In this document: positions 27,080 through 45,134 of the stretch, in pieces
Layout of the letters: each line of letters opens with the position of its first letter
Position numbering within the stretch: the first letter of the stretch is position 1
From: Kordia antarctica
GTDB taxonomy: Bacteria > Bacteroidota > Bacteroidia > Flavobacteriales > Flavobacteriaceae
NCBI RefSeq assembly: GCF_009901525.1
Contig: NZ_CP019288.1
Location: 744,001 to 808,000 of the forward strand
Length of the DNA stretch: 64,000 nucleotides
Direction: 5' to 3'
The notes under the pieces: generated by a model
What the model was told of the DNA's origin: nothing
What the model saw: only the letters and a program-made list of their open reading frames with translations
The model's database searches: none
Translations under genes and position numbers: made by a program

Positions 27080-27523
27080 AGGGAAAATTCTCTTTCATTA
27101 TTATGGAGTTCCCACCGTAAAAACGGAGGTCAGGCTATACACTGTATCTTTTTAAAGCAATAGTCATTCCAAAAAATGGTAGAAGTTTCAAGGTAATTTG
27201 TGCTCTTAATGGGCAGATTACTTCGTCGTTCCTCCTCGTAATGACGTAAAATAGCTTTAAAAAGGATGCCGTTTCTATCCTTAACTCAAATACAGATTAA
27301 ATGTACAGACTTTCTCGCATACAAAAAAGAATTGAAAAGGATTTAAAGATTGAAAAATTTAATAATTGAAAGATTTAACAATTGAGGTATATATCACATT
27401 TATAAAATTGCCAACTTCTCAACTGAAAATCAACGGTATGGAATTTTGGATTGTGTGACGGTTACATCATTGTTTCCATGACGCGCGAGTTTAGTTTTGT
27501 ACCATGCAATCCAAGAATTTGCT
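27080..27523. other. Intergenic region between histidine kinase and GH3 genes
   Basis: The 444 bases contain a REP half-unit near 27210-27245 (GCAGATTACTTCG ... CTCGTAATGACG) and short direct repeats (AAAGATTGAAAAATTTAA / GAAAGATTTAACAATTGA) near 27340-27385. No credible ORF was found. The GH3 promoter on the minus strand should lie near the lower end. Confidence 0.5.
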
Positions 27524-29486: not shown

Positions 29487-29645
29487 TTATTGTTCGTGAC
29501 AAACCATACAACGATCTCCCCAAGTTCCATTGGCTTCACAAGTTTGGTTTACTGTACCTCTACCTTTTACTTTTTCGTAAGTATCTCCAAATGAAGAAAT
29601 GGCTTTTTTGTTTAATTTCAGATTTTTTAAACTTCTTTTTTTCAT
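29487..29645 (-). CDS. Small Cys-containing ribosomal-peptide precursor (class I lanthipeptide-like leader)
   Basis: The 52-residue ORF begins MKKRSLKNLKLNKKAISSFG, the LxLxK-type leader of Bacteroidota natural-product precursors. It is nearly the same as the leaders at 39578 and 60897. The core region (VNQTCEANGTWGDRCMVCHE) has three Cys. A true Gly-Gly is absent; KVKGRG stands at the expected cleavage position. A shared promoter box lies 52 bases upstream. No modifying enzymes are adjacent. It may be matured by enzymes elsewhere in the genome or simply oxidised. Confidence 0.75.
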   Translation of the reverse strand: MKKRSLKNLKLNKKAISSFGDTYEKVKGRGTVNQTCEANGTWGDRCMVCHEQ

Positions 29646-29666: not shown

Positions 29667-29711
29667 TAAAGATAGTGCATTTGAAAATCAACCATTTACG
29701 GTTTTACCGTA
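29667..29711 (-). promoter_or_regulatory. Promoter module: TACGGT-ACCGTA box plus TAnnTTTA -7 element
   Basis: Read on the minus strand, the box TACGGTAAAACCGTA (29697-29711) is followed after 22 bases by TATCTTTA (29667-29674), which lies 21 bases before the peptide ATG. The box here is a near-perfect inverted repeat. The same arrangement occurs at 38979, 39770, 44183 and 45089. Confidence 0.7.
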
Positions 29712-29864
29712 GGAATGTTAGGATAAAAGTAGTATTCTCAAGAAGTTGTAGAGAATTGTCTGAAGAAATAATTTTACAAAACTAAAAAAAGGCTATAAGA
29801 TAAGACTTGAAAACGTCACTCTAAACCATATACTGAACTTTATTCAGTACCAAATCGAAATCTG

Positions 29865-30238
29865 ATTAACGTGAGTTCGATATAAAATTTCAGAGTGTTT
29901 TTTTGTCTTTTCCGAAGTATAGCAGGGATTTTTCGTTAAGAATTTTCGAATCCTTGGAAATCGAAGATTCATGAACTCCTTAATTTAAAATAGAAAACCG
30001 TGAACTAAAAAATTTAGAAAAATTCATGCGGTTTTAGTTTTTCCAAAAAAGAAAAACTAAAAATGCCTCTGGAAAAGCGCACTTTCTTTTGTTGACGTCT
30101 GTGCTGAACTTGATTCAGTATTCTTTGTGCGAGCAAAGAAAACGAAAATAACAAAATGAAAAATCAAATATTTAGCACTTATTTTAGAAATATGTTCAAA
30201 ATTTTATTTGAGTAAACTTATATCGAACTCAGGTTAAT
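29865..30238. mobile_element. MITE-like noncoding element with 21 bp terminal inverted repeats
   Basis: The left end 29865-29885 (starts ATTAACGTGAGTTCG) and right end 30218-30238 (reverse complement starts ATTAACCTGAGTTCG) match at 20 of 21 bases. The 374-base interior has no ORF but is rich in stem-loops (for example TAGTTTTTCC/AGAAAAACTA near 30045) and carries a CTGAACTTGATTCAG unit at 30104-30118. No target-site duplication could be confirmed by eye. It could be a non-autonomous transposon remnant or a structured repeat. Confidence 0.6.
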
Positions 30239-30391
30239 AACATAAATTTTCAAAGATTATGTGAAACTGAATCAAGTTCAGTTTGACGGAAATTGAAGGT
30301 ATGAATGCACAGATTACTTCGAGATTATAAATTTCTCGTAATGACGTTCTGAGAGACCTTTTGAATTAGTCTCTTGTATGTATAATGATAA

Positions 30392-30877
30392 TTAATTCAG
30401 AAAACGTCCATGCCAGCTTTCACTTGCAGGAACTTCCCAGTTTTCTAAAAAATCTGCTTTTGTAGTTACCAAATTGTTGAATACAATGGTTTTTCCTGTC
30501 ACAGCATTGTCTTTTGCCATTTTACGGAAGTCTTTTAAGTCTTTGTATGCAATGTATTCACCTTGCTTGTAGGAAACGTTCATTTTGTCCATTAAATCAA
30601 CATTGTAGTCTTTTTCTAATTGTTGAATAAAACGAACCGAAGCATCAATAGAACAACCTGTTGCCGCTTGTGTATCTTGATCTACAGCAATGATTATGAA
30701 ACGCTTGTATTTGATTTCAAAGGAAGCTTGTAAGTCGCTTCCGTGTGCTGTCCATTGTGTGATGAAGTCAGCAAGTTTTGCCTTTATTTCTTCTAATTCA
30801 GTTTCGCTAAATGATCTGTTTGCTTGGTAAATCCAAACTTTGGCTTCTTCTGAAATTGTATTAAATTCTACGAGCAT
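30392..30877 (-). CDS. Conserved hypothetical protein, 161 residues
   Basis: I recognise this as a protein conserved in Flavobacteriia and sometimes labelled ABC transporter ATPase, but it has no Walker motifs, so that label is not supported. It starts MLVEFNTISEEAKVWIYQAN and has regions FIIIAVDQDTQAATGCSIDA and GKTIVFNNLVTTKADFLENW. It has no signal peptide or membrane segment. It follows the Fe-S oxidoreductase gene by 29 bases on the same strand and is likely co-transcribed with it. The single Cys in TGCSID sits in a conserved-looking stretch. Function is unknown. Confidence 0.85.
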   Translation of the reverse strand: MLVEFNTISEEAKVWIYQANRSFSETELEEIKAKLADFITQWTAHGSDLQASFEIKYKRFIIIAVDQDTQAATGCSIDASVRFIQQLEKDYNVDLMDKMNVSYKQGEYIAYKDLKDFRKMAKDNAVTGKTIVFNNLVTTKADFLENWEVPASESWHGRFLN

Positions 30878-30906
30878 GTGTTTTTAGTTTACGACTTCTA
30901 GTTTTA

Positions 30907-31686
30907 TTATAAGTCTTGTGCGTTTGCAATGAGTTCTGCGATGTCTTGCACTATTACGCTGTCTTCTTTTTCTTTATTTTTAATTCCGTCCGTCATCATC
31001 GTATTACAGAATGGACAACCAGTCGCAATGATATCTGGTTGTACTTCTAATGCTTGTTCCGTACGTTCAATATTTACTTCTTTGTCTCCAGGTTCAGCAT
31101 CTTTAAACATTTGCGCGCCTCCGGCACCACAACAAAGTCCTTTTTTTCGGCAGTTTTTCATTTCTACCAACTCAACATCTAACTTGCGAATTAGTTCACG
31201 TGGAGCTTCATACACTTCATTGCCACGACCTAAGTAACACGGATCATGAAACGTGATCTTTTTTCCTTTAAAACTTCCGCCTTCAATCTTCAATCTTCCA
31301 TCATCAAGTAATGATTTTAGAAATTGCGTATGATGCATTACTTCGTACGTTCCACCCAATCCTGGGTATTCGTTTTTAAGCGTATTAAAACAATGTGGAC
31401 ACGCTGTCACTACTTTTTTGATATCGTACGCATTCATGACTTCAATGTTAGTCACGGCTTGCATTTGAAATAGAAATTCGTTTCCAGCACGTTTTGCAGG
31501 ATCGCCAGTACAACTTTCTTCTGCACCTAATACTGCAAACTCAACATTTGCGTTGTTTAGTATTTTTACGAAAGCTTTCGTTATTTTTTTGGCTCTGTCG
31601 TCAAAACTTCCTGCACAACCAACCCAAAATAGTACTTCAGGTTGTTTTCCTTCCGCCATGTATTCTGCCATTGTAGGTACTTTCAT
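30907..31686 (-). CDS. Fe-S oxidoreductase subunit with two CCG (cysteine-rich) domains
   Basis: The 259-residue protein has two cysteine-rich CCG-type repeats as in HdrB, GlpC and LutA. The first has WVGCAGSFDDRAKK and ACPHCFNTLKNEYPG. The second has DPCYLGRGNEVYEAPR, CRKKGLCCGAGGAQMF and ATGCPFCNTMMTDG. Such domains bind a noncubane 4Fe-4S cluster and handle thiol/disulfide or two-electron redox chemistry. The gene lies 40 bases downstream of the membrane-bound ferredoxin-like partner (31727-33040), so the two probably form one complex with a membrane anchor, an HdrDE-like arrangement. Physiological donor and acceptor are unknown. Confidence 0.9.
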   Translation of the reverse strand: MKVPTMAEYMAEGKQPEVLFWVGCAGSFDDRAKKITKAFVKILNNANVEFAVLGAEESCTGDPAKRAGNEFLFQMQAVTNIEVMNAYDIKKVVTACPHCFNTLKNEYPGLGGTYEVMHHTQFLKSLLDDGRLKIEGGSFKGKKITFHDPCYLGRGNEVYEAPRELIRKLDVELVEMKNCRKKGLCCGAGGAQMFKDAEPGDKEVNIERTEQALEVQPDIIATGCPFCNTMMTDGIKNKEKEDSVIVQDIAELIANAQDL

Positions 31687-31726
31687 TGTCGTATATTTTT
31701 AAGTTGTCACTTTATTTTTTAACTGC

Positions 31727-33040
31727 TTAGTTTTCATCTTTCCAATTGAGTCTGTCCATTTGATTATATGGCCAAGGTGCTCCATTGTTTTCAATATTCC
31801 CCATCATAACGTTTAGTTCTGTTGGTGCCGCTGATTGCTCCATAACTAAGTATTTACGCATTTCCATGATAATGGATAACGGATCAATACTCACAGGACA
31901 CGCTTCTACACAAGCATTACAAGATGTACACGCCCATAATTCTTCTGGTGTGATATAATCATTTAATAACGATTTTCCATCATCGATAAATGTGCCTTTG
32001 TTTGCATCAATGTTTTTTCCGACTTCTTCTAGACGATCTCTAGTGTCCATCATTATTTTACGTGGCGATAGTTTTTTCCCTGTCTGGTTTGCAGGACATT
32101 CACTTGTGCAACGTCCACATTCCGTACACGTATACGAGTTTAGTAATTGAACCCAATTTAAATCTTGCACATCTGAAGCTCCAAATTTTTCTGGTTCGCC
32201 TTCATCTTCTCCTTCTGCTGGAGCGGCAAACGGATCAGCATTCGGATCCATCATTAACATGACTTCTTTTGTCACATTTGCATCGTTTACAAATTCGCCC
32301 TTAGGCTTTAAATTCGCATAAAACGTATTTGGAAATGCTAATAGAATGTGTAAGTGTTTTGAGAAGTATAAGTAGTTTAGAAACACTAAAATTCCCGCAA
32401 TGTGCAACCACCAAGCTACTTTTTCAATAATATGTGCAGTTTCAACATTTCCTTCGAATAAAGGATATAGATATTGACTGATTACATTTCCGTTTCCAGC
32501 TTGTTGAAAAGATATATCGGCAGCATTCATCACAATAAATAACGTCATTAAAACTATTTCAAAGTATAGAATGATGTTTCCGTCACTTTTTGGCCAACCT
32601 TTCATTTCGGCACTTAGAAAACGTTTTAACTTGATTATATTTCTACGAATCCAAAATATGATTACAGAGATTAATACACCAATTGCTAGTATTTCAAATG
32701 TTCCAATTAGGAAACCATAAATGCTGTCTGGTAAAACTTTAGTGAAAACGCGGTGTGTTCCGAAAAGTCCGTCAATGATAATTTCTAAGACTTCAATGTT
32801 TATGATTACAAATCCGACATATACAATGATATGAAAGAAACCTGCAATTGGTCTGCGCACCATTTTTGATTGTCCCAACGCAATCATTCCCATGTTTTTC
32901 CAGCGTTGTGATTTGTTGTCAGAACGATCTACATCTTTTCCTAGATTGATGTTTCGGGATAGTTTTTTAACATTTTTTCCGAAGTAACCTATGCCGAAAA
33001 TTAAGAGTATGGCAAATAGAATGTTTGGAATGTACTCCAT
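31727..33040 (-). CDS. Membrane-bound 4Fe-4S dicluster protein (HdrE/NarI-like plus ferredoxin domain)
   Basis: The 437-residue protein has an N-terminal membrane region with about five helices (for example ILFAILLIFGIGYFGKNVK and FEILAIGVLISVIIFWI) and scattered His that could bind haem. A C-terminal 4Fe-4S dicluster domain follows: CTECGRCTSECPANQTGKKL and CTSCNACVEACPVSIDPLSI. It probably moves electrons between the quinone pool and the CCG-domain protein encoded just downstream. Both ferredoxin motifs are complete (CxxCxxCxxxCP). It follows the MlaD-like gene by 27 bases in the same direction. The specific role is not known. Confidence 0.9.
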   Translation of the reverse strand: MEYIPNILFAILLIFGIGYFGKNVKKLSRNINLGKDVDRSDNKSQRWKNMGMIALGQSKMVRRPIAGFFHIIVYVGFVIINIEVLEIIIDGLFGTHRVFTKVLPDSIYGFLIGTFEILAIGVLISVIIFWIRRNIIKLKRFLSAEMKGWPKSDGNIILYFEIVLMTLFIVMNAADISFQQAGNGNVISQYLYPLFEGNVETAHIIEKVAWWLHIAGILVFLNYLYFSKHLHILLAFPNTFYANLKPKGEFVNDANVTKEVMLMMDPNADPFAAPAEGEDEGEPEKFGASDVQDLNWVQLLNSYTCTECGRCTSECPANQTGKKLSPRKIMMDTRDRLEEVGKNIDANKGTFIDDGKSLLNDYITPEELWACTSCNACVEACPVSIDPLSIIMEMRKYLVMEQSAAPTELNVMMGNIENNGAPWPYNQMDRLNWKDEN

Positions 33041-33067
33041 GAGTAGTATATGTTTAGGTGGTTAAGC

Positions 33068-34066
33068 TTAGTTTTTCTTTTCTTCGGTTTCTTCTTTTTC
33101 GTCTTCTTTTGGTTCCTCGTATTGTTTTGGACGTTTTCCAAATAATGAGAAGTGTACGTATCGTTTCGGATTCAACTTCATGTCTTCTAACAGTTGTTCC
33201 ATTTGTAAAGATGCTCCTGTAAGATTGTCGTAGAGTTTATCATCTTTCAATAGCTTTCCAACAGAACCTTTTCCATTTTCAATTCCTGCAATGATGTTAT
33301 CAAATCGTTTGAGAGTTCCTTGCATTTGCTTCATGGTTTCGTTGAGTTCTAATGCAGCCAACGAATCAGAAATTGTAGCCATATTGGACGCCATTTTGTC
33401 AAGATTTGTAAACGTATTGTCTAACTTATCTTTGTTTCCGTCTAAAAGCGAATTGAGTGTTCCTGAAGCTTTTTTGAAGTTTGAAACCGTCGTTGTCAAA
33501 TCTTGAAGGCTGTTTTTGATGTTATTTCTTGATTCTTCGTTCAGAATTTGATTCACAGAAGTTAACAAAGAATCTGCACTTACCAACATTAATTCTACTT
33601 TGCTTTGTAATGGTGAGAGTTGATTGGTAAAAGCATCAATCATTCCTAATTCTATGACAGTTTTAAGCGTATCACCCGAAACTGCTATTGCAGCGCCATC
33701 GTGCTTTAGCTTGATTGATAACGTTTTTCCGCCAATGAAACCGCTTTCTTGCAATTGCACTAAGCTATTTTTAGAAAATTTAAAATCGTTGTCTAAGGAA
33801 AGTGTAACTAATGATTTTCCAGATGGTTGTAATTTAATGCTTTGTACTTTTCCTACTTGATAGCCATTGATTAAAACTTTGGTAGAAGAAACCAAACCGC
33901 CAACATTATCATATTCTGCATAAAACACTCTGTCGTTAGATAGTACAGACCTTGACATTAAGTAACTAATTCCGAAGTATAAGAGCACTAGCGCAGTAAT
34001 TACCAGTAATGCTGTTTTGATTTCTCTAGATCTTTTCAATTTTTTGGAAATTTGTGAACTTCGCAA
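33068..34066 (-). CDS. MlaD/MCE-domain protein
   Basis: The 332-residue protein has a basic N-terminus, one membrane anchor (LLVITALVLLYFGISYLMS, about 20-38), then an MCE domain (VFYAEYDNVGGLVSSTKVLI ... GYQVGKVQSI, about 45-120). A long helical region and a charged, Glu/Lys-rich tail follow. MCE proteins form hexameric rings in the periplasm that carry phospholipids between membranes. No MlaE or MlaF gene is adjacent here. It follows the amidase gene by 37 bases, an order common in Flavobacteriia as far as I recall. Confidence 0.92.
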   Translation of the reverse strand: MRSSQISKKLKRSREIKTALLVITALVLLYFGISYLMSRSVLSNDRVFYAEYDNVGGLVSSTKVLINGYQVGKVQSIKLQPSGKSLVTLSLDNDFKFSKNSLVQLQESGFIGGKTLSIKLKHDGAAIAVSGDTLKTVIELGMIDAFTNQLSPLQSKVELMLVSADSLLTSVNQILNEESRNNIKNSLQDLTTTVSNFKKASGTLNSLLDGNKDKLDNTFTNLDKMASNMATISDSLAALELNETMKQMQGTLKRFDNIIAGIENGKGSVGKLLKDDKLYDNLTGASLQMEQLLEDMKLNPKRYVHFSLFGKRPKQYEEPKEDEKEETEEKKN

Positions 34067-34103
34067 AATTAGCCATTTTTTTACAAAGAATCTGTCTAAT
34101 TTA

Positions 34104-35234
34104 TTATTGTTTTAGCACTTCTGTTAAGGATATCTTTTTTCCGTTTTTGTAAGCTACAATGTAACATGTTGCATACCCTTTGCGAATAGCTGCTTCTTTT
34201 TTACGCTTTATTTCTTCATAATCAGAAGTTTCTCCGTAGAAATAACGAAATATTTTTCCCGCTTTTTCTCTTGATATTTCTTTTAATCCTTTAAAATTAT
34301 ATGCTTTTGTAGAAATCTTTTTAGAACTCGCCGCCAATTGTACTTTAAACGTAACATCTTTATATACTCTTGAAACCGCTTTTTCTTCACTTTCGTGATG
34401 ATCTACAACGGTATTTTTAGCATCTGAAGAAATATCCACATGCAATGAAATATATTTTTTGATCGCATTATATAAAGAATTTGTCATGACTTTTTTACCC
34501 TTTTTAGAGTTTAGATAGTCTTCTTCTTTTTTATGCGTTAAAAAACCCAATTCTACCAAAACACTTGGCATATACGTTTTTGATAATACCCAAAAACCTG
34601 CTTGCTTTACGCCTCTATCTTTACGTTTTGCAGTAGTTTTAAATTCTTTTTGAATGTACGATGCAATTTCAATACTTTGATCTAAGTATTCTTCTTGCAT
34701 GATAATTAAGCTTATTAATGATTCTGGCGAGTTTGGATCGAATCCGCCATAAGTTTCTTCATAATTGTCTTCCAATAAAATCACCGAGTTTTCGCGCTTG
34801 GCAACTTCTAAATTTGATTTATTTTTACTCAACCCTAATACAAATGTTTCCGAACCGTATGCTGTTCCTTTTTTTCCAGGTTGCGCATTGCAGTGAATAG
34901 AAATGAATAAATCTGCTTTTTTCTTATTCGTTTTTATAGCACGTTGCTGTAATGTTGGATACGTATCTTTGGTGCGTGTGTAAATAACTTTTACATTAGG
35001 AAGTTTTTCTAACATCTTTCCCAACGCCAATGAAACATCTAAAGCAATGTCCTTTTCCGTGGTTTTATAACGTCCAGTTCCTGGTGTTCCTGTGTCTCTT
35101 CCGCCATGTCCAGCATCAAGCATTACAACAAATTGCTTTTTCTTTTTTGGAGGATTCTTTTCTGTGGTTCCGTTCGCCGCAACTAAAAAACTAGTCGTGC
35201 AGAGCATCATTAAAAGTAAAAAATATTTTTGCAT
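34104..35234 (-). CDS. N-acetylmuramoyl-L-alanine amidase (Amidase_3) with C-terminal SPOR-like domain
   Basis: The 376-residue exported protein has a signal peptide (LLLMMLCTTSFLVAANG). The Amidase_3 domain covers about 33-265 with zinc ligands in VVMLDAGHGGRDTG, a Glu in KRENSVILLEDN, the His of LFISIHCNAQPG, and the catalytic Glu in PSVLVELGFLTHK. The last 80 residues (VTFKVQLAASSKKIST ... GYATCYIVAYKNGK) look like a SPOR domain, which binds denuded septal glycan. The enzyme cleaves the amide between MurNAc and the stem peptide during cell separation. It is divergent from the LptD-like gene across a 320-base gap. Confidence 0.93.
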   Translation of the reverse strand: MQKYFLLLMMLCTTSFLVAANGTTEKNPPKKKKQFVVMLDAGHGGRDTGTPGTGRYKTTEKDIALDVSLALGKMLEKLPNVKVIYTRTKDTYPTLQQRAIKTNKKKADLFISIHCNAQPGKKGTAYGSETFVLGLSKNKSNLEVAKRENSVILLEDNYEETYGGFDPNSPESLISLIIMQEEYLDQSIEIASYIQKEFKTTAKRKDRGVKQAGFWVLSKTYMPSVLVELGFLTHKKEEDYLNSKKGKKVMTNSLYNAIKKYISLHVDISSDAKNTVVDHHESEEKAVSRVYKDVTFKVQLAASSKKISTKAYNFKGLKEISREKAGKIFRYFYGETSDYEEIKRKKEAAIRKGYATCYIVAYKNGKKISLTEVLKQ

Positions 35235-35554
35235 AAATTCGATTTTTAGCTGTTCGTTTATATCTTTAGTAGGTCAAATACAATTCGCCAACACCTATAT
35301 ATGTTAACATAAACTTAATTATGTCGGCTCTTTTTATTTGATTATAGTATAATAATGTTAATCTACGTTCCTTATTGTGTTAATTATGATTAATTTTTCA
35401 TAAATCTATGATAAAAATACACTAACAGGTTTGGCACTTCAATTATTGAGCCATACTTTTACGACCTATATTTGAAACGAAAATATAAAAGTTACTTGAC
35501 TATTCATAAAAGAAATCTTTCTTTTGTGAATTATAACGAATTTGGACTAGAGCA
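35235..35554. other. Divergent promoter region between amidase and LptD-like genes
   Basis: This 320-base A+T-rich region must hold both promoters. I saw no repeat, hairpin with T tract or small ORF worth reporting. Confidence 0.5.
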
Positions 35555-38284: not shown

Positions 38285-38565
38285 TAGACTTCTTAGACTT
38301 GCTCAGATTTTTAGACTTCTTGGACTTGATTAGACTACTTAGACATTTTAGACTTACTTAGATTATTAGAATTAAATCTTGATTTTAAAAGCGCAGCGAT
38401 CTTAACTCTATTCTTTCGGTTAATATATCTCAAAGTTATTTTGAAAATACCTCTTGAAGTTTTACATTTACTCAACATAAAAAACGAATCCAACAATCCA
38501 ACAATCCAACAATCTAACAATCTAACAATCTAAGTAAGTCTAACTAATCTAACCAAGTCTAAATA
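38285..38565. repeat. Simple-repeat gap with 6 x 8 bp array at 38487-38534
   Basis: The first part is built of degenerate TTAGACTT units. The second part holds six head-to-tail 8-mers (AATCCAAC three times, then AATCTAAC twice and AATCTAAG) at 38487-38534, ending 32 bases before the RidA start. No gene was found. Confidence 0.85.
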
Positions 38566-38955
38566 ATGTCAAAAAAAATCATAACTACACCAAACGCTCC
38601 TGCACCAATTGGTCCATACAATCAAGCAGTATTAATTAATGGAACGTTATATACTTCTGGTCAAATTCCTATTGATCCGAAAACGGGGAAACTTGTGCAA
38701 GATTCTATCGAAGCGGAAACCAAACAAGTCATGGAAAACATGAAAGCTGTTTTAGCTGCCGCTGATATGACATTTGAAAACGTAGTGAAAACATCTATTT
38801 TCATTAGCGATATGCACAATTTTAGCAAAATTAATGATGTTTATAGTGAATATTTTGATGATGCAACTGCGCCAGCGCGTGAAACTGTAGAAGTTGCCAA
38901 TTTGCCTAAATTTGTAAACGTAGAAATTTCTATGATTGCAATTGAAGGTGCGTAA
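38566..38955 (+). CDS. RidA-family (YjgF/YER057c/UK114) deaminase
   Basis: The 129-residue protein has the whole family pattern: NAPAPIGPYNQAVLINGTLY, SGQIPIDPKTGKLV, MENMKAVLAAADMTFENVVK, and the Arg-containing PARETVEVANLPK. RidA proteins hydrolyse reactive enamine/imine products of PLP enzymes and form a cytosolic trimer. Active-site Arg (in APARETVEV) and the closing Glu (IAIEGA) are present. It stands alone between the repeat gap and a peptide precursor gene. Confidence 0.95.
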   Translation: MSKKIITTPNAPAPIGPYNQAVLINGTLYTSGQIPIDPKTGKLVQDSIEAETKQVMENMKAVLAAADMTFENVVKTSIFISDMHNFSKINDVYSEYFDDATAPARETVEVANLPKFVNVEISMIAIEGA

Positions 38956-38978
38956 ATTCAATAAAAACATACTTAAAG

Positions 38979-39023
38979 TACGGAAAACACATAACTAACT
39001 GACTTGTAGATTTACTAACTTTA
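38979..39023 (+). promoter_or_regulatory. Promoter module upstream of the 39051 precursor
   Basis: TACGGAAAACACATA (38979-38993) resembles the box at the other precursor promoters, though less exact. It is followed after exactly 22 bases by TAACTTTA (39016-39023), 27 bases before the ATG. The fixed spacing is the main support. Confidence 0.55.
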
Positions 39024-39050
39024 ATGATTATTAACCATAAAATTATAATC

Positions 39051-39239
39051 ATGTTAAAAAACATTTCAAAAGTTGGAACCGTATTGAGCAAATCGGAACA
39101 ACAAAACATTAGCGGAGGAAGACCTGTTAGAGGTTGTTACCAACAATCAGGAAGTACTTGTTGTCAGCCATACAGCGGCGGATTTACATTCTGTGATGCT
39201 GGTAGATGTGGTGGAAACGGATATTGCTTCTGGTATTAA
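39051..39239 (+). CDS. Double-glycine leader peptide precursor with six-Cys core
   Basis: From the ATG at 39051 the product has 62 residues. The leader is MLKNISKVGTVLSKSEQQNI followed by SGG. The core (GCYQQSGSTCC ... FCDAGRCGGNGYCFWY) has six Cys in the order C-CC-C-C-C. The paralogue at 54286 has nearly the same leader and the same Cys order. An in-frame ATG at 39024 adds MIINHKIII but falls after the -7 element, so 39051 is preferred. The core may be a disulfide-rich bacteriocin or signalling peptide. The exporter is not in the window. Confidence 0.82.
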   Translation: MLKNISKVGTVLSKSEQQNISGGRPVRGCYQQSGSTCCQPYSGGFTFCDAGRCGGNGYCFWY

Positions 39240-39307
39240 GATATAGTTGAATTTCCCCTAAATCTCTTATACTTTCAAAATACTATTCTCAAAATTACAG
39301 CACAAAA

Positions 39308-39340
39308 AAACCTCAAAAAACTAGTGCCTTCTGAGGATTC
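39308..39340 (-). terminator. Stem-loop after the 39360/39578 precursor pair
   Basis: On the minus strand CCTCAGAA pairs with TTTTGAGG and is followed by T7. It lies about 20 bases beyond the stop at 39360. Confidence 0.65.
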
Positions 39341-39359
39341 TTCAAAATTATTATTTCTT

Positions 39360-39527
39360 TTAACAAGCCTGCCAGAAAAAATCTGTTTTACTTGTATAAC
39401 AACGACGTGCATTAAGAAAAGGATCGCAGAAATCTTCGCAAAGATATTGCATTCCTCCTAGAACTTCTGCTTGTGTTTTCTTATCTAATTTTTGTACGTT
39501 TTTAATATTTAAAATTGATTTCAACAT
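39360..39527 (-). CDS. Double-glycine leader peptide precursor, 55 residues
   Basis: The ORF reads MLKSILNIKNVQKLDKKTQA then EVLGG, a bacteriocin-type leader. The core (MQYLCEDFCDPFLNARRCYT then SKTDFFWQAC) has four Cys, the last being the terminal residue. It lies 50 bases downstream of the 39578 precursor, with no terminator between, so both are on one transcript. The start is the only ATG in frame. No modifying enzyme is adjacent. Confidence 0.78.
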   Translation of the reverse strand: MLKSILNIKNVQKLDKKTQAEVLGGMQYLCEDFCDPFLNARRCYTSKTDFFWQAC

Positions 39528-39577
39528 AATTTGATTTCTTTTAATGAATGAATAAATTAATCTGTGTTAAAGTTGTC

Positions 39578-39742
39578 TTAGCAACCGTCAGCAGGCGCAG
39601 TTGCACACTGAAAATGACATTGATAATTGTTACTTGATGTACACATTCCAGATCCCATAGTTCCGCCAGTAATTGCTTCTGTTGCTAATGATGAAACTGT
39701 TTCTTTTAATAATTTCAAGGTTTTAAGATTTCTTTTTTTCAT
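39578..39742 (-). CDS. Small peptide precursor with lanthipeptide-like leader, 54 residues
   Basis: The leader is MKKRNLKTLKLLKETVSSLA then TEAITGG. The core (TMGSGMCTSSNNYQCHFQCA then TAPADGC) is rich in Ser, Thr and Cys, as expected for thioether or disulfide chemistry, with Cys as the last residue. The promoter module lies at 39770-39813. It is followed by the second precursor at 39360. No lanthionine synthetase is encoded nearby, so the final structure cannot be stated. Confidence 0.78.
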   Translation of the reverse strand: MKKRNLKTLKLLKETVSSLATEAITGGTMGSGMCTSSNNYQCHFQCATAPADGC

Positions 39743-39769
39743 GATTTATAATTTTAAGGTTTGATTCCA

Positions 39770-39813
39770 TTAAATTATGAAAACCAAAAGATTAAATTCT
39801 ACGGTTTTGCCTT
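39770..39813 (-). promoter_or_regulatory. Promoter module for the 39578-39360 precursor pair
   Basis: On the minus strand the box TAAGGCAAAACCGTA (39799-39813) is followed after 21 bases by TAATTTAA (39770-39777), 27 bases before the ATG. Homology to the module at 44183-44227 extends beyond the box by about 17 bases (TTAAAATTKTGTTAARTAAGG). Confidence 0.7.
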
Positions 39814-39983
39814 ACTTAACAAAATTTTAAACACGTTTTAATGTGTAAATACTAAACAACTCCTAAAGTTATTTGTTCTTCAAATTGAATATATATGAGG
39901 AAAAAACATTTAAAATATTGATGTTTACGAACGAATTTCAAAAAAAAAGTAATCCGTTATTTATTAGGTGGAAAATGCTTCAA

Positions 39984-41639
39984 TTATTCTATATCTATTT
40001 GTTCAGAAATAATTAAATTATTATGAATATCTTTTACAATTAATTGATAGGATCCAACAGGTAAGTTAAACTTTCTATTCTTATTATTAATCGTGCTAAT
40101 TTTATTTAAAATAGGTATTGAGTTTGATTTATATTTTGAATATTCGTTCACAAAGTAAAATGAAAATAATAATTCTTCATTAATGTATTTACCTAATTTA
40201 TCATTTGTGTAATTTATACTTCTAATGTTTTCTTTTCCATAAACAGCTTCTAAAGATGGTGTTATGTTATTTATTAAGAAGAAATCGACATTTGTGTTTA
40301 CTCTTTTTACATTTTTAAACGCAGACGATTCTATTAAAATCAATCTGTTTGAAGAGCTATAAGGGATTTCAACTTGATCAATAGTTACAGGATTTATCGT
40401 TGTTAATTCCATAAAGTATTCAGCCATCCGCTTGTTTGTAGTGCTTTTTTCTAGAATATGATCAATTCCTGCATAGACAACTATTTTTGCATTTGAATCT
40501 TTATCCAGGATGTCTTTTATGTTTAGTGCTTGCGTTTTTTCTCTATTTTCTGTGGTGAAATCATCATAACCAACAATTTTGAAACCTTGTTTTAATGCTT
40601 CTCTGATAAAGAGTCCGAAATAAGGTTCTCTGGAGTAATAACCAGAAGATTTGAGAGGGAAATTACTGTTTTCAAAAAATGAATTTTTGCTTTTATCAAT
40701 CGCTTCTATTGCCAAATAATTAAATCCATTTTCTTTTAAAGTTGTTAACATTTTTAATGCAACTATTCTATGTTTTGGATGCCAATGCATTTCATTTAGC
40801 ATCAATACTTTTTTATTTTTTGAGATTTGTTTTATTTTTTCTAAAAAATCATCTTCAAAAGTTACGCTTGTGTTGCTTTTTATAATAGAATCAATATGTT
40901 TTTTTAAGTATTTTTCTTTTTTAAGTTCAAACTTATCTACCAAATCATTGTATTTTTTATACGTTGGATCTTTGGATAAAATGGTGGTAAGTAATTGAAA
41001 TTTTGTCCATTCATTGCTATTATTCTTAGCAATCGGAGCAGTTTCAAATTTACTATCTACATATAAAAAATTATCTTCTTCTTTATAAGTATTAAATATT
41101 TTCATGTACGTAAGTTCATCTTTCAACGAGTTATTAAACCGTAAAGAATTCACTATTGATTTCCCGTCTTGCAGTATGGATGTGTTAGATTTGTGCTTGC
41201 CAATTGCTTTTAAATATACGTAAGCTGTTTTAGTATTTTCTGCTTTTTTGTATAGAACAAACTTATTAATTGTATCATTTACAACTAAATCAACCGAATT
41301 GATTGTTGTATCATTTTTATGGGTTTTATTATTTTTATAGAAAAGATACATGTGATATTTGGGAGCAGAATATGCTTTTCCGGCGAGTATTAAATCTTTA
41401 TAATCAACATTTAAATTATCATAAACCATTATTTTTTTGTACTCGCTTTTAAGAGGAAATGAATAGTTAATATCCCCAAAAAGGCGCGCGCTAATTTGTA
41501 AAGAATCATTGTAGAATTCGCTTCCATTAAAATAATTGTATTTTCTATTCACGTCAATAGAAATGCAAGATGACAGCGCGATTAGTAAAATTAAATATAC
41601 AAATACGCTACTATTTCCATTCAGTAGTTTGCGGGTCAT
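39984..41639 (-). CDS. EreA/ChaN-like (TraB-type) lipoprotein in the grasp-with-spasm operon
   Basis: From the ATG at 41639 the protein has 551 residues with a lipoprotein signal (FVYLILLIALSSC). The C-terminal half looks like the erythromycin-esterase/ChaN superfamily: VLMLNEMHWHPKHRIVALKM (Glu, His, His, Arg), LAIEAIDKS, EALKQGFKIVGYDD and VVYAGIDHILE. It overlaps the end of the SPASM gene by 29 bases, so it belongs to the operon. Members of this fold are metal-dependent or haem-binding hydrolase-like proteins. A role in cleaving the peptide leader, or an ester in the product, is speculative. The open frame continues upstream to 41720, but only 41639 gives a proper signal peptide. Confidence 0.72.
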   Translation of the reverse strand: MTRKLLNGNSSVFVYLILLIALSSCISIDVNRKYNYFNGSEFYNDSLQISARLFGDINYSFPLKSEYKKIMVYDNLNVDYKDLILAGKAYSAPKYHMYLFYKNNKTHKNDTTINSVDLVVNDTINKFVLYKKAENTKTAYVYLKAIGKHKSNTSILQDGKSIVNSLRFNNSLKDELTYMKIFNTYKEEDNFLYVDSKFETAPIAKNNSNEWTKFQLLTTILSKDPTYKKYNDLVDKFELKKEKYLKKHIDSIIKSNTSVTFEDDFLEKIKQISKNKKVLMLNEMHWHPKHRIVALKMLTTLKENGFNYLAIEAIDKSKNSFFENSNFPLKSSGYYSREPYFGLFIREALKQGFKIVGYDDFTTENREKTQALNIKDILDKDSNAKIVVYAGIDHILEKSTTNKRMAEYFMELTTINPVTIDQVEIPYSSSNRLILIESSAFKNVKRVNTNVDFFLINNITPSLEAVYGKENIRSINYTNDKLGKYINEELLFSFYFVNEYSKYKSNSIPILNKISTINNKNRKFNLPVGSYQLIVKDIHNNLIISEQIDIE

Positions 41640-42615
41640 AATTACAAATGGAAGTATGTTCATATAATTCATTTTTAAGTTTACTTTTTGTTTCAGGAAT
41701 TCTATTATCTGGACAGACATATCTAAATTCGCACGATTGACAAATTTTAATTTTATCTTTCGTTACCTTCCATATTTTTCTAAATGATTTAGAAGAAATT
41801 ACTGATTTAATATCGTCCTTTTCAATGGTGCCAAACACATTTTTAGAATTGTAGTAATTCTTAATGTTTCCTTTATTATCCACATACGCTTTCCTGTTAA
41901 AAAAAAGATTACGCTTTAAAGATTCTCTGTATGCTTTTTGATTTAAAACAAAATCATGTACGCTAGAAATTCTTTTTGTTAAAATAGCATCTAAAGATCC
42001 TTCTTCAAATTTGAATTGAATTACTTCGCTTTGCTCCTTTTTAGAACTTTCAAAAAAGATTGTTTTTCTAAATCTTGGAAATTTATAATGAAGATTCAAA
42101 ATTGGTGCTATATTTTTCTCTTCATGCTTCGTTATTAGTGTAATATTTTGAATTTTTGATTGCTCTAAAAGGGTAACCACTTTTTCTAGTATACTTAAAT
42201 CAAGTATATTTTTTGTCAGAAAAACAATTTGGCTACAGCCTAAAGAGTTGATGTTTTGTAATAGTGTTATTTTACTGTTTTCTAAGGAGTCAATTTCCAA
42301 AAAAAGAATATCTAAGATAAAAGGAGATTCAAATTTTGTACTTGTAGTCGGAAACTTGTTTAGATCTTCAGTTAAATGTATTAATTCACTTTCTAACAGA
42401 TAGTTGAAATATTTGTCTAACAAGAGTGTTTGCGACTCATATGCTGCATAAATTGTTGCTAATTTGTTTGTTTCGTTTGAAGTAAGTAGCTCTATAATAG
42501 AGTTTGGCAAAAAGAAAAAACTACCTTTCTGTAAATCATAAATCACGCCTCTTTTTAAGCCTTTTACTGGAACGCAAGAATTATGAAGTTTAAAATATTT
42601 GTTTTTATCAATCAT
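41611..42615 (-). CDS. gwsS: Grasp-with-spasm system SPASM-domain peptide maturase
   Basis: The 334-residue protein has an N-terminal PqqD-like stretch (VPVKGLKRGVIYDLQKGSFF) and a C-terminal SPASM-type Cys cluster (KICQSCEFRYVCPDNR, and a last Cys in TSICNYDP). There is no CxxxCxxC motif, so it lacks a canonical radical-SAM core although the middle resembles a worn barrel (ILDILFLEIDSLENSKITLL). Its start overlaps the 61-residue ORF by 4 bases (ATGA). Together with the ATP-grasp protein it defines the grasp-with-spasm class. Its chemistry has not been established as far as I know. Confidence 0.87.
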   Translation of the reverse strand: MIDKNKYFKLHNSCVPVKGLKRGVIYDLQKGSFFFLPNSIIELLTSNETNKLATIYAAYESQTLLLDKYFNYLLESELIHLTEDLNKFPTTSTKFESPFILDILFLEIDSLENSKITLLQNINSLGCSQIVFLTKNILDLSILEKVVTLLEQSKIQNITLITKHEEKNIAPILNLHYKFPRFRKTIFFESSKKEQSEVIQFKFEEGSLDAILTKRISSVHDFVLNQKAYRESLKRNLFFNRKAYVDNKGNIKNYYNSKNVFGTIEKDDIKSVISSKSFRKIWKVTKDKIKICQSCEFRYVCPDNRIPETKSKLKNELYEHTSICNYDPQTTEWK

Positions 42616-42797
42616 AAAAAAGCTGGTTTATAAAAGTCGTAACACCTCATAGTATCGGTTGTATAAAAGTCAGAAGCTACAAATGTTAAATCTGATCTTT
42701 TAATAGGACCAACCTCTTTACCTTCTATAAAAAAAACATTGATAGGCAAACAGTCTTTAAATTCTAATGGAATTTTGTCAACTAAAACAGTTTTCAT
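42612..42797 (-). CDS. 61-residue protein coupled between the ATP-grasp and SPASM genes
   Basis: The product starts MKTVLVDKIPLEFKDCLPIN and contains VFFIEGKEVGPIKRSDLTFV and a Cys-containing RCYDFYKPAFL end. It has no Gly-Gly and no signal peptide. It overlaps the upstream ATP-grasp gene and the downstream SPASM gene by 4 bases each (ATGA), a strong sign of real, coupled translation. I do not recognise a family. It may be a chaperone or recognition element for the maturases, or a second substrate. Confidence 0.8.
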   Translation of the reverse strand: MKTVLVDKIPLEFKDCLPINVFFIEGKEVGPIKRSDLTFVASDFYTTDTMRCYDFYKPAFL

Positions 42798-43762
42798 ATG
42801 TAATCTAATTTTTTGATTAAGTAATTTGCTACTTTTTTATGTAAATTATAATTGCAAGGGAAACTAGTCATACCAAACTGCCCAGAAGGATTTACCTCTA
42901 AAAAGTAATAGTTTCCATCTACGCTTTTTATTATATCAATGGAGCCTGTATTTAAACCTATATGCTTCATTAAATTTGATAGCTTTTCCTCAACTGTACT
43001 TGGTAGTTTATATCGTGCAACTCTATTTGGGTTATCGAAATCGTAATTTCTAAAATCAATCTTAGTTTTTTCATTACTTTGAGAAAAAATTACCATGCTA
43101 TAAAACTTATCTTCAATAAAAAATATTCTCAATTCATATTCTTTTTTAATATAGCCTTGAAATAATGAAGGACTAAACTTCGCTGTTACTTTTGAAAGAT
43201 CTTCTATTTTTTGAGTATAAAAAGGATAATTTTTGCCTTCGTATTGTATATGTTTTCCTTCTCCTAACGATTTAGAAATAATTGAACCATTATTCTGTTT
43301 AAAAAAGATTTCAAGATCATCCTTTTTAGAAGTAACTGTTGTGTTGGGTATTTTCAATCCAAATTGATGCGCTAAATGTAGTATTTCAAGCTTAGTTTGC
43401 ATGTTTTTCCTTTTGAACAACCATTTTTTATCTTCCAATAAATTGAAAATCATTGTTCTTAATACAGAAAATTCTGAATTGATATAACGTACTAAATCAT
43501 TTTTACTCCCAAACTCGTCTTGATAACTTTTAAAAAAGCCAAACTTCCGATACCAAACAACGCTAAAATCTTTAAAATAATATTTAGTATTTTTTGAAAT
43601 TATATATGAATCTTTAATCTTTATTGGATCAAGGAAAAATGAAGCTTTTCCTGTCATGATATCTTCATCATTTAGCCTAAAAAAAGAAATATTTTTAAAA
43701 TGTAACCAATCTATTACAGCTTGTGTGTCGTAATCTCTTGGTGTGCTTAAAATTAATATCAT
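42794..43762 (-). CDS. gwsG: Grasp-with-spasm system ATP-grasp peptide ligase
   Basis: The 322-residue protein is an ATP-grasp ligase of the graspetide type. It starts MILILSTPRDYDTQAVIDWL, and the ATP-grasp core has ELRIFFIEDKFYSMVIFSQS, DFDNPNRVARYKLP and the metal/ATP-binding GSIDIIKSVDGNYYFLEVNP then SGQFGM. Such enzymes form ester or amide links between Ser/Thr/Lys side chains and Asp/Glu carboxylates of a precursor. The precursor with an acidic tail lies 83 bases upstream. The 3' end overlaps the 61-residue ORF. Functional residues appear intact. Confidence 0.92.
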   Translation of the reverse strand: MILILSTPRDYDTQAVIDWLHFKNISFFRLNDEDIMTGKASFFLDPIKIKDSYIISKNTKYYFKDFSVVWYRKFGFFKSYQDEFGSKNDLVRYINSEFSVLRTMIFNLLEDKKWLFKRKNMQTKLEILHLAHQFGLKIPNTTVTSKKDDLEIFFKQNNGSIISKSLGEGKHIQYEGKNYPFYTQKIEDLSKVTAKFSPSLFQGYIKKEYELRIFFIEDKFYSMVIFSQSNEKTKIDFRNYDFDNPNRVARYKLPSTVEEKLSNLMKHIGLNTGSIDIIKSVDGNYYFLEVNPSGQFGMTSFPCNYNLHKKVANYLIKKLDYI

Positions 43763-43779
43763 AAATTCAAAGGAATTAA

Positions 43780-43822
43780 AAAAAATAAAATGAGATTGTA
43801 CAAATAATCATACAATCTCATT
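43780..43822 (-). terminator. Attenuator-like hairpin between precursor and ATP-grasp genes
   Basis: AATGAGATTGTA (43789-43800) and TACAATCTCATT (43811-43822) form a perfect 12 bp stem with a 10-base loop. On the minus strand it is followed by a T-rich run (TTTTATTTTTTTT). It lies 24 bases after the precursor stop and 26 before the ligase ATG. Partial termination here would give more precursor than enzyme. Confidence 0.8.
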
Positions 43823-43845
43823 ATAATATTATAAACGGAATACTA

Positions 43846-44007
43846 CTATAAGTCATCCCAATCCTCATCAGAGCCATCGTCTCCATCTGCAGGAGCTCCA
43901 CTACCAACTGTTACGGTATTAGAACTAAACGTATTAGATGCCATTCTTCCACCAAAAATTGAATCTATTTCAACTTTTTCACAATTAAAGTCTTCTAATT
44001 TTTTCAT
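43846..44007 (-). CDS. gwsA: Grasp-with-spasm (graspetide-like) precursor peptide
   Basis: The 53-residue ORF has leader MKKLEDFNCEKVEIDSI then FGG. The core is split into a Ser/Thr-rich part (ASNTFSSNTVTVGSG) and an acidic tail (PADGDDGSDEDWDDL) with eight Asp/Glu. Hydroxyl donors followed by carboxylate acceptors are what an ATP-grasp ligase needs to form macrocyclic esters. It lies directly upstream of the ligase, separated by the hairpin at 43780-43822. The promoter module is 175 bases upstream, giving an unusually long leader RNA. Confidence 0.87.
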   Translation of the reverse strand: MKKLEDFNCEKVEIDSIFGGRMASNTFSSNTVTVGSGAPADGDDGSDEDWDDL

Positions 44008-44182
44008 AATAAAAAGGGTTATAAATTTTGCTTACTCTTTTAAAGGATTTTCAGCTTTCTCCTTATTTTATATGAATTGACTTTCGATTTACTAGTCAAT
44101 TTCCATTAGTAAAGTATGCTTTTTTTAATAGTAAATTTTCATCAGCATGCTTTAGAATGACGCAATCTTTTTTAACTTTTGA

Positions 44183-44227
44183 TTAAATTATATAAATCAT
44201 AAGTTTTATGCTTACGGTTTTACCTTA
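44183..44227 (-). promoter_or_regulatory. Promoter module for the grasp-with-spasm operon
   Basis: On the minus strand the box TAAGGTAAAACCGTA (44213-44227) is followed after 22 bases by TAATTTAA (44183-44190). The precursor ATG is 175 bases further on, far longer than the 21-27 bases at the other modules. The intervening stretch contains only a seven-codon ORF (MLMKIYY). Confidence 0.65.
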
Positions 44228-44330
44228 TTTAACACAATTTTAAAAATTTCTAGTTTGTAAATAATGAAAAACTCATGAAAATTGTATCTTTCAAAAGATG
44301 AATGTTATTTGTCCTTTAATTGAATTACAC

Positions 44331-44771
44331 ATGAAAAAAATTATCTTCTTACTACTTATTGCTTCGCTCCTATCGCTTAAATCTACTGCGCAAGAAATTT
44401 CATTGTTCGATAAAAACGGAGATCCAATTGCATACATCGCTACCAAAGAAGAAATGGCTATTTACTTGTGGGACGGAACGCCTGTTGCATATCTCGATGC
44501 TGAAAATGACGAAGAATTATACGATATATATGGTTTCAACGGAAATCATTTAGGTTGGTATGATGATGGTTTCGTGATAAACCATAAAGGATATATTGTG
44601 GGATTTGTAAAAAGTGCTACCAACATTTTTACACGATATGAACCTTTTAAGCCGTTCAAAAAATTTAAGCCTTTCAAGGGTTTTAAAAAGTTTCCGCCTT
44701 TCAAACCATTTTTCAGAGATCAATTTTCTACGGAATCGTTCGCGATTTTCTTATTGCGCGGGAAAAAGTGA
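44331..44771 (+). CDS. Secreted 4-fold beta-flower-like protein with FKPFK tail
   Basis: From the ATG at 44331 the product has 146 residues: a signal peptide (IIFLLLIASLLSLKSTAQ), then four similar strand-turn units (ISLFDKNGDPIAYI, IYLWDGTPVAYLD, IYGFNGNHLGWYDD, VINHKGYIVGFV). This fits the 4-fold beta-flower domain found in Bacteroidota. The C-terminal third is a basic aromatic repeat (KPFKKFKPFKGFKKFPPFKP). The function is unknown. It is divergent from the grasp-with-spasm precursor. An ATG 33 bases upstream (44298) is less likely since it would bury the signal peptide. Confidence 0.72.
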   Translation: MKKIIFLLLIASLLSLKSTAQEISLFDKNGDPIAYIATKEEMAIYLWDGTPVAYLDAENDEELYDIYGFNGNHLGWYDDGFVINHKGYIVGFVKSATNIFTRYEPFKPFKKFKPFKGFKKFPPFKPFFRDQFSTESFAIFLLRGKK

Positions 44772-44816
44772 ATTTCAAAATGTTGGTTCTGACGTAAAGT
44801 CATTTATAATTTAACT

Positions 44817-44850
44817 AAAAAAAACTCCAACAGTGCTGTTAGAGTTTTAA
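44817..44850. terminator. Bidirectional terminator between convergent genes
   Basis: AAAACTCCAACAG and CTGTTAGAGTTTT form a stem with one mismatch, A-rich on one side and T-rich on the other. It lies between the plus-strand gene ending at 44771 and the minus-strand precursor ending at 44877. Confidence 0.82.
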
Positions 44851-44876
44851 ATCTTTTACTAAAATTTCGTTTGGTA

Positions 44877-45062
44877 TTAATCCAAGCAGCAAACACAATG
44901 ACCTTGCCTGTGCATATGATATCCTGGATCGCAAGTATCTCCAGCTCGTATAAGGTAAGGATCTCTACATGTATATGGTTGTTGAGCTCCACCATTAATA
45001 ACTTGTTGTATTTCTTTTGAAAGATTTTGAACACCTTCCACATTCATAATTTTTTTTAACAT
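44877..45062 (-). CDS. Double-glycine leader peptide precursor, 61 residues
   Basis: The leader reads MLKKIMNVEGVQNLSKEIQQ then VINGG. The core (AQQPYTCRDPYLIRAGDTCD then PGYHMHRQGHCVCCLD) has five Cys and two His, ending in CVCCLD. The promoter module with the shared box lies at 45089-45134, 26 bases upstream of the ATG. A second frame on the same strand (44804-45043) overlaps but lacks these features. The peptide could be a metal-binding or disulfide-rich secreted product. Confidence 0.8.
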   Translation of the reverse strand: MLKKIMNVEGVQNLSKEIQQVINGGAQQPYTCRDPYLIRAGDTCDPGYHMHRQGHCVCCLD

Positions 45063-45088
45063 GATTATATTTTTAAGTTGATATAATC

Positions 45089-45134
45089 TAAATATAAAAA
45101 TTAATTTGAAGAAAAAGATTACGGTTTCGCCTTT
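45089..45134 (-). promoter_or_regulatory. Promoter module for the 44877 precursor
   Basis: On the minus strand the box AAAGGCGAAACCGTA (45120-45134) is followed after 23 bases by TATATTTA (45089-45096), 26 bases before the ATG. Confidence 0.65.

Follow-up and report, generated by a model that had tools for sequence, protein, structure and literature searches.

A conserved promoter module ahead of scattered peptide-precursor genes in Kordia antarctica, with a NarL/RcsB-type response regulator as its likely switch

Large numbers of dispersed peptide-precursor genes are known from the prochlorosins of picocyanobacteria, where the shared part is the maturase. In the GacA-RsmY/Z system, a NarL-type regulator acts through a dyad upstream of small RNAs with G-rich loops in the control of secondary metabolites. 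The streptococcal regulators ComE and BlpR are LytTR-type proteins. In Streptococcus mutans, one ComE/BlpR two-component system is reported to drive both the lantibiotic SmbAB and the non-lantibiotic NlmAB (PMC12323615), and the half-sites TTAGGAA and TCTAAGA are given for RcsB (PMC5829831). Here we analyzed a window of 64,000 nucleotides from Kordia antarctica (genome positions 744001-808000), the whole genome of this species and a range of other genomes. We describe a promoter module carried by more than 40 scattered precursor genes, and a two-component system that is the likely candidate for its control. A first-pass annotation of the window had proposed that five promoters of small peptide precursors share a 15-bp box and form a regulon under a single activator.

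All five modules were found where that annotation had placed them (Table 1); four boxes are good, and the fifth, at 38979, is degraded. The box is a 15-bp dyad, TAmGG-N5-CCkTA, with TAnnTT starting 22 bp behind it; at the five window sites this distance is 22, 22, 22 and 23 nt, and 22 nt at the weak site. The box at 29697 is a perfect 6-3-6 inverted repeat. The degraded site keeps the geometry, with 57 bp to the ATG at 39051 and TAACTTTA at a gap of 22, and the orthologue of the 39051 precursor in another Kordia genome (G002, locus L123) has an intact box, TACGGTTACACCGTA, at the same 57 bp. Box and ATG are 51-57 bp apart at four of the window sites and 205 bp apart at the graspetide locus. 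As claimed, the module stands ahead of lanthipeptide-like, double-glycine and graspetide precursors alike. These class names go by resemblance: none of the seven window precursors reached the cut-off of the class I lanthipeptide leader model NF038153 (one scored below it and the rest not at all), and for this reason we speak of lanthipeptide-like precursors only.

Across the K. antarctica genome, precursors were collected with two leader models, A1 for double-glycine leaders (36 matches, 33 examined) and A2 for lanthipeptide-like leaders (133 matches, 122 examined), both built from mostly box-bearing genes, a caveat for the counts that follow. Left out were three A1 matches (E >= 0.07) and 11 A2 matches (ten at E >= 0.10, one at 0.016); one of those left out (4893780, E 0.42) carries the exact module. 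A box with at most one mismatch precedes 42 of the 155 examined precursors (A1 19/33, A2 23/122), in 28 cases exactly. Boxes within 20-120 bp were found for 43, and one of these, at 118 bp, was excluded. In 39 of the 42 the box lies 49-59 bp from the ATG and in the other three 70, 71 and 91 bp. Markov shuffles of the upstream regions gave a mean of 0.71 and a maximum of 4 precursors with a box out of 155, and control windows inside or behind the precursor genes gave none (0/155). TAnnTT starts exactly 22 nt behind the box in 40/42 and 23 nt behind it in 2/42; a site held at such a constant distance, immediately before the core promoter, is in the position of a class II activator site. TGTTAA precedes the box in 18 of the 42 promoters. 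The same module occurs at the graspetide promoter (44213) and at a precursor that the leader models missed (4893709), which brings the total to at least 44 precursors. Box-bearing precursors are also more isolated, with a median distance to the next precursor of 6.5 kb versus 0.45 kb for box-less ones (p = 0.002). With about 155 or more small leader-type precursor open reading frames in all, the K. antarctica genome often holds its box-less ones in arrays.

TAMGGYAAAACCGTA has 13 exact matches in the genome and TAMGGYNNNRCCKTA has 25, of which 17 lie ahead of precursors (16 leader-type genes and the graspetide gene). The remaining eight comprise three that start intergenic RNA candidates, two inside long genes, two without a clear target and one 102 bp ahead of an amylase gene, where no -7 element stands at 22. 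The module extends beyond precursors, to small-RNA candidates and to an M57 metalloprotease gene, and box-like sites are found at the operon of the candidate regulator described below. The annotation had further suggested that the box takes the place of the usual -33 TTTG element. The box does sit at that position, and TTTG occurs 17-27 bp upstream of the -7 element in 0/42 box promoters; the contrast is weak, however, since only 5/38 comparable box-less promoters have TTTG.

Exact boxes were counted in 11 Kordia genomes and in 138 genomes from outside Kordia. The Kordia set contains 87 copies of the strict palindrome TACGGTNNNACCGTA versus 8 of the reversed control; of the 138 others, 33 have at least one copy of the palindrome. 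A sequence-only module model was run on eight genomes; 150 candidates were scored per genome, and totals are therefore lower bounds. At E <= 1 it gave at least 114 matches in K. antarctica, at least 92 in Kordia algicida (G009), at least 31 in G024, which belongs to another genus, and at least 11-21 in the five others. Among the K. algicida matches at E <= 1e-3, 18 of 21 lie ahead of leader-type precursors with the -7 element at 22 (one at 23), and the other three at a lipoprotein gene, at a site without a target and at a homologue of RNA candidate C (see below). Among the K. algicida matches listed, down to an E value of about 0.07, and inspected, 24 of 41 precede precursors. The concentration of hits ahead of small Gly-Gly open reading frames, which the first-pass annotation expected of a genome-wide motif search, is borne out by the 42/155 and the 18/21. 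What the sequences show directly is the module itself, its rigid spacing, its association with precursor genes and its conservation within the genus.

Some further sites lie ahead of other kinds of genes. In G024, a module with TAnnTT at 22 (L323, 854813) is located 53 bp before a gene for an Rce1/CPBP-type membrane protease (PF02517). A family of genes for small acidic lipoproteins of about 55-60 aa, preceded by box-like sites, occurs in K. antarctica (about 608120, 1356902 and 4709725) and K. algicida (L380, L395), and one member precedes the kinase and regulator discussed below. In K. antarctica, an M57 metalloprotease lipoprotein gene (PF12388) also has a module 69 bp upstream (L343, 2194916, minus strand; one mismatch, gap 22). 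Of the candidate secreted proteases of K. algicida, the one most strongly induced in the algicidal, active phase is encoded by an M57 gene (PMC10565126). No module ahead of an M57 gene was present among the 41 K. algicida matches inspected, and we claim no link between the module and algicidal activity.

Two candidate transcripts, here called RNA-A and RNA-B, run through intergenic DNA from gene-less box sites (1483118 and 4232754) to hairpins resembling intrinsic terminators. Each has one full-length copy in all 11 Kordia genomes, 88-96% identical to that of K. antarctica. Outside the genus, 29 genomes yielded a single 31-nt match to A and a single 24-nt match to B, and a 22-mer of RNA-A was found in nine contigs of an 84,980-species collection, all of them Kordia. 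In the alignments the box is present in 11/11 genomes for both RNAs while the upstream flanks have diverged; the core of the RNA-B box reads AAA in nine genomes and TTT in two, with the half-sites intact. TAnnTT lies 44 nt (A) and 43 nt (B) behind the box in K. antarctica, about twice 22, and by reading a weaker box can be made out between the distal box and TAnnTT. The predicted hairpins of A and B have unlike stems and a common UUUAGGGGAAU. A third candidate, C (1269153, gap 45), is kept in K. algicida with a gap of 44 and with changes in both arms of its terminator stem. Rfam gave no match above threshold for A, B or C. Judging from these sequence features, all three would be made as transcripts. 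CCCCTAA-type complements of the loop shared by A and B are not enriched in the 155 precursor regions, and the 12-mer GATTTAGGGGAA with at most one mismatch occurs 42 times versus 19 in the control, a modest difference. The idea of a small-RNA target was dropped, as a good complement exists at one place only. This is TTTCCCCTAAATCTCTT, at window 39247-39266 just 3' of the 39051 precursor, which is complementary to the shared loop and is kept in the G002 orthologue.

The candidate regulator is a NarL/RcsB-type response regulator encoded at 610389-611060, adjoining a TPR-HisKA_3 kinase gene (608828-610384). It has a receiver domain (PF00072, 44.3 bits vs 30.2), its D64 is invariant in 13/13 aligned orthologues, and it is 96-98% identical in ten other Kordia genomes. 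Its profile matches RcsB (3-206) and VraR (5-211) across both domains, the closest solved structures being those of RcsB. The kinase carries TPR, HisKA_3 (25.6 vs 24) and HATPase_c (42 vs 26.4). In G024, a box with a gap of 22 to TATATTTG is located 48 nt behind the orthologous regulator gene. Nine non-Kordia regulator loci were chosen by similarity rank and not by box. Five of them have tandem boxes 22 bp apart and TAnnTT at 22 directly behind the regulator gene, in most cases together with a conserved short candidate RNA; at a sixth the downstream RNA is the same but the boxes are degenerate. The arrangement is seen at least in part in three more genera (G018, G024 and G069), which were picked for boxes already known; a second regulator paralogue in G069 is without it. 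The candidate RNA behind the regulator gene is conserved (TCAACA ... ATTAATTAATCCCTC ... TGTTGA ... TAGCAA, then a terminator), and Rfam searches of these loci gave no family above threshold; it does not follow the regulator in the two Kordia genomes examined. Shuffles of the nine loci gave no tandem boxes, and 210 kb of other non-Kordia DNA gave one, a terminator-like palindrome. In Kordia, box-like pairs 22 bp apart, with a -7 element at 22 or 44, lie in the aligned region upstream of the lipoprotein-kinase-regulator operon; the proximal site is within two mismatches in 9/11 genomes and at least one site in 11/11. Single sites of this quality occur about once per 19 kb of background (11 in 210 kb), and because they are so common it is the pairing and the conservation of the operon sites that count. 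The module adjoins orthologues of this response regulator, and since the same signal is found beside its gene, the regulator with its TPR kinase is the likely master switch.

We propose that a dimeric activator bound at the box would jointly switch on more than 40 scattered genes for precursors of ribosomally synthesized and post-translationally modified peptides (RiPPs) or bacteriocin-like peptides of different classes, together with small RNAs, and that this activator is most likely the response regulator at 610389-611060. We put the probability of this reading at about 0.78. The box would be the dimer's binding site just upstream of the TAnnTT(TG) -7 element, at the fixed 22 bp of a class II position. 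The phosphorylated NarL-type dimer, controlled by the adjacent TPR-HisKA_3 kinase, would occupy the 15-bp dyad, roughly from -33 to -47, and touch RNA polymerase in place of the -33 contact. Further targets would be conserved small RNAs, two or three in number, and probably the operon that encodes the regulator itself. There the (distal) box is about one more 22-bp step upstream (gap 43-45), so that the dimers would share the same helix face. On balance we also favor a particular history, in which the TPR kinase and NarL-type system of flavobacteria originally drove a small RNA from tandem boxes, 22 bp apart, right after the regulator gene. The box would then have spread in Kordia to more than 40 scattered RiPP precursors and to another two or three small RNAs, yielding a master switch of the peptide arsenal and a CsrA-free counterpart of Gac/Rsm in Bacteroidota.

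Several observations weigh against the proposal. With up to two mismatches, TAMGGYAAAACCGTA is hardly enriched in the K. antarctica genome (121 vs 100 in the control), which means that for weak sites the signal is carried by position and spacing. No box is found ahead of 113 of the 155 examined precursors, and other regulation must exist for these; the regulon first proposed thus stands in that precursors share the module, but it is not confined to them and includes only about a quarter of those examined. As for the regulator, Pfam GerE is absent from the matches of its C-terminus at E <= 0.01, and it falls below the NCBIfam cut-offs for MctR (69.4/300), NarL (35.3/250), GacA (30.3/280) and RcsB (28.8/235). 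Its family occurs in 59/149 genomes, most of them without exact boxes. Of the nine similarity-ranked loci, two show neither boxes nor RNA and another shows a single box but no RNA. The boxes at the Kordia operon are weak, both sites being within two mismatches in only 6/11 genomes.

One rival explanation keeps the regulon and the class II activator and assigns the box to another protein, for example an XRE- or TetR-like factor or some other NarL-type regulator, with the boxes beside the regulator being ordinary members of that factor's regulon. Twelve matches in the genome point to at least 11 more response regulators like this one, some regulator loci have no box, and box adjacency was examined for this one regulator gene only. 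Against this, the tandem module directly behind the regulator recurs in several genera, in genomes selected for regulator similarity rather than for a box, and Kordia has box-like sites upstream of the regulator operon; we regard another binding protein as unlikely. The dyad just upstream of the -7 element could also be the operator of a repressor that holds the peptide genes off and releases them together. Base-exact spacing argues for activation over repression, however (-7 within 22-23 in 42/42), as does TTTG in 0/42 box promoters (box-less 5/38), which fits an activator replacing the -33 contact, and this makes a repressor quite improbable. Least of all do we believe that the box is a hairpin or terminator belonging to the genes upstream, or a mobile repeat that travels with the precursors. 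Similar palindromes in G029 (AAAAGTAAGGTAAAACCTTACTTTT) do look like terminators, but TTTT follows within 12 nt of only 4/42 Kordia boxes, two matching half-sites are present in only 16/42, and the surroundings differ between sites while the -7 spacing is fixed.

Several candidate sites were set aside. In G029, a match of the module model 79 bp before a paralogous response regulator had hinted at autoregulation; that palindrome and two alike resemble terminator hairpins. Exact boxes without TAnnTT at 22 toward the gene were left uncounted on that ground. Outside Kordia they lie ahead of secreted proteins (L110, L113, L116) and of a small peptide gene (L112, L114, L115), and within the genus, in two genomes (L011, L126), ahead of an amylase gene. 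The small peptide gene encodes 48-55 aa (MKTKK..., C-terminus like KIKIPxxG) in three genera (G024, G069, G018), with the exact box 107-116 bp before the ATG; presumably it is flanked on one side by a tsaE-like gene, itself near a PorX-like regulator, and on the other by a gene for a membrane protein. An exact box in G089 (L119) has TAnnTT at 22 and its next ATG 217 bp away. Also uncounted is a box in G049 that lies 4 kb away from the regulator gene and whose sole TAnnTT is at 44.

At the graspetide locus of the window, ATP-grasp and SPASM maturases that both score above cut-off adjoin the predicted graspetide precursor, as in grasp-with-spasm systems; the precursor had no match of its own in the family-model searches. 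A DUF805b RNA motif (RF02914, 46.7 bits vs 35.6) is present at 44029-44064 (minus strand), between the box and the ATG at 44007, and so probably in the leader of the precursor gene. A Flavo-1 RNA (RF01705, 48 bits vs 42) lies at 27124-27290 (minus strand), downstream of a histidine-kinase-like gene (27524-28981).

Table 1. Promoter modules, precursor genes and maturase genes in the window (window coordinates).
Feature	Position	Strand	Remarks
Box TACGGTAAAACCGTA, perfect 6-3-6 inverted repeat	29697..29711	-	exact consensus match
-7-like element TATCTTTA, 22 bp behind box	29667..29674	-	
Lanthipeptide-leader-like precursor, 52 aa (MKKRSLKNLKLNKKAISSF...)	29487..29645	-	leader model A2; NF038153 15.6 bits vs cut-off 22
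Degraded box TACGGAAAACACATA, 2 mismatches, right half-site lost	38979..38993	+	
-7-like element TAACTTTA, 22 bp behind degraded box	39016..39023	+	
Double-glycine leader, six-Cys precursor, 62 aa (MLKNISKVGTVLSKSEQQNISGG...)	39051..39239	+	
Box TAAGGCAAAACCGTA	39800..39814	-	
-7-like element TAATTTAA, 22 bp behind box	39770..39777	-	
Lanthipeptide-leader-like precursor, 54 aa (MKKRNLKTLKLLKETVSSL...GG)	39578..39742	-	leader model A2
Graspetide-locus box TAAGGTAAAACCGTA	44213..44227	-	module model match E 1.1e-5
-7-like element TAATTTAA, 22 bp behind graspetide-locus box	44183..44190	-	
Graspetide-like precursor, 53 aa, acidic C-terminus, 205 bp from box	43846..44007	-	
ATP-grasp peptide maturase, grasp-with-spasm type	42794..43762	-	TIGR04192 281.9 bits vs cut-off 230
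SPASM-domain peptide maturase, grasp-with-spasm type	41611..42615	-	TIGR04193 186.3 bits vs cut-off 175
Box AAAGGCGAAACCGTA, 1 mismatch to TAmGGNNNNNCCkTA	45120..45134	-	
-7-like element TATATTTA, 23 bp behind box	45089..45096	-	
Double-glycine leader, six-Cys precursor, 61 aa (MLKKIMNVEGVQNLSKEIQQVINGG...)	44877..45062	-	leader-model match

Scattered RiPP precursors are many in Bacteroidota, and one readable switch would show which of them belong together. If the proposal is correct, this switch predicts transcript starts to the base, and a single kinase-regulator pair governs when the peptides are made. For flavobacteria, it would add a two-component system with a small RNA as candidate output, and a variant of the TAnnTTTG promoter that depends on an activator and is sharply defined. 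Titles and abstracts of the papers listed in the searches, with subscription papers mostly outside coverage, contained no report of this box, of a Bacteroidota regulon uniting more than 40 dispersed precursors from several classes, or of a small RNA tied to this regulator. Overall, the earlier interpretation is partly supported: the genome-wide regulon reading holds, while one activator for unrelated peptide types, put forward as new, is not new in itself. The S. mutans ComE/BlpR precedent makes the novelty claim too broad (PMC12323615).

Comparison with the closest systems shows what is particular to Kordia. Like BlpRH/ComDE of streptococci, the proposed system would place one two-component system behind peptide genes of different kinds. 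It differs in that the likely regulator is of the NarL/RcsB type, that the box is an inverted repeat with the -7 element at 22 bp, and that the targets found exceed 40, with RNA candidates and a graspetide gene among them; no gene for a pheromone was identified here, and in Kordia a small lipoprotein gene precedes the kinase. The RcsB half-sites (PMC5829831) resemble TAmGG/TAAGG of the present box. The organism group and the targets are others, the present dyad is a 15-mer with GG/CC cores, and the Pfam GerE domain was not found at the threshold given above. With GacA-RsmY/Z the proposed system would share a NarL-type regulator and a dyad upstream of small RNAs with G-rich loops, whereas no CsrA was found in K. 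antarctica and the GacA-family score of the regulator is 30.3 against a cut-off of 280. Finally, the precursor genes are numerous and dispersed, like those of the prochlorosins, but the shared part seen in Kordia is the promoter.

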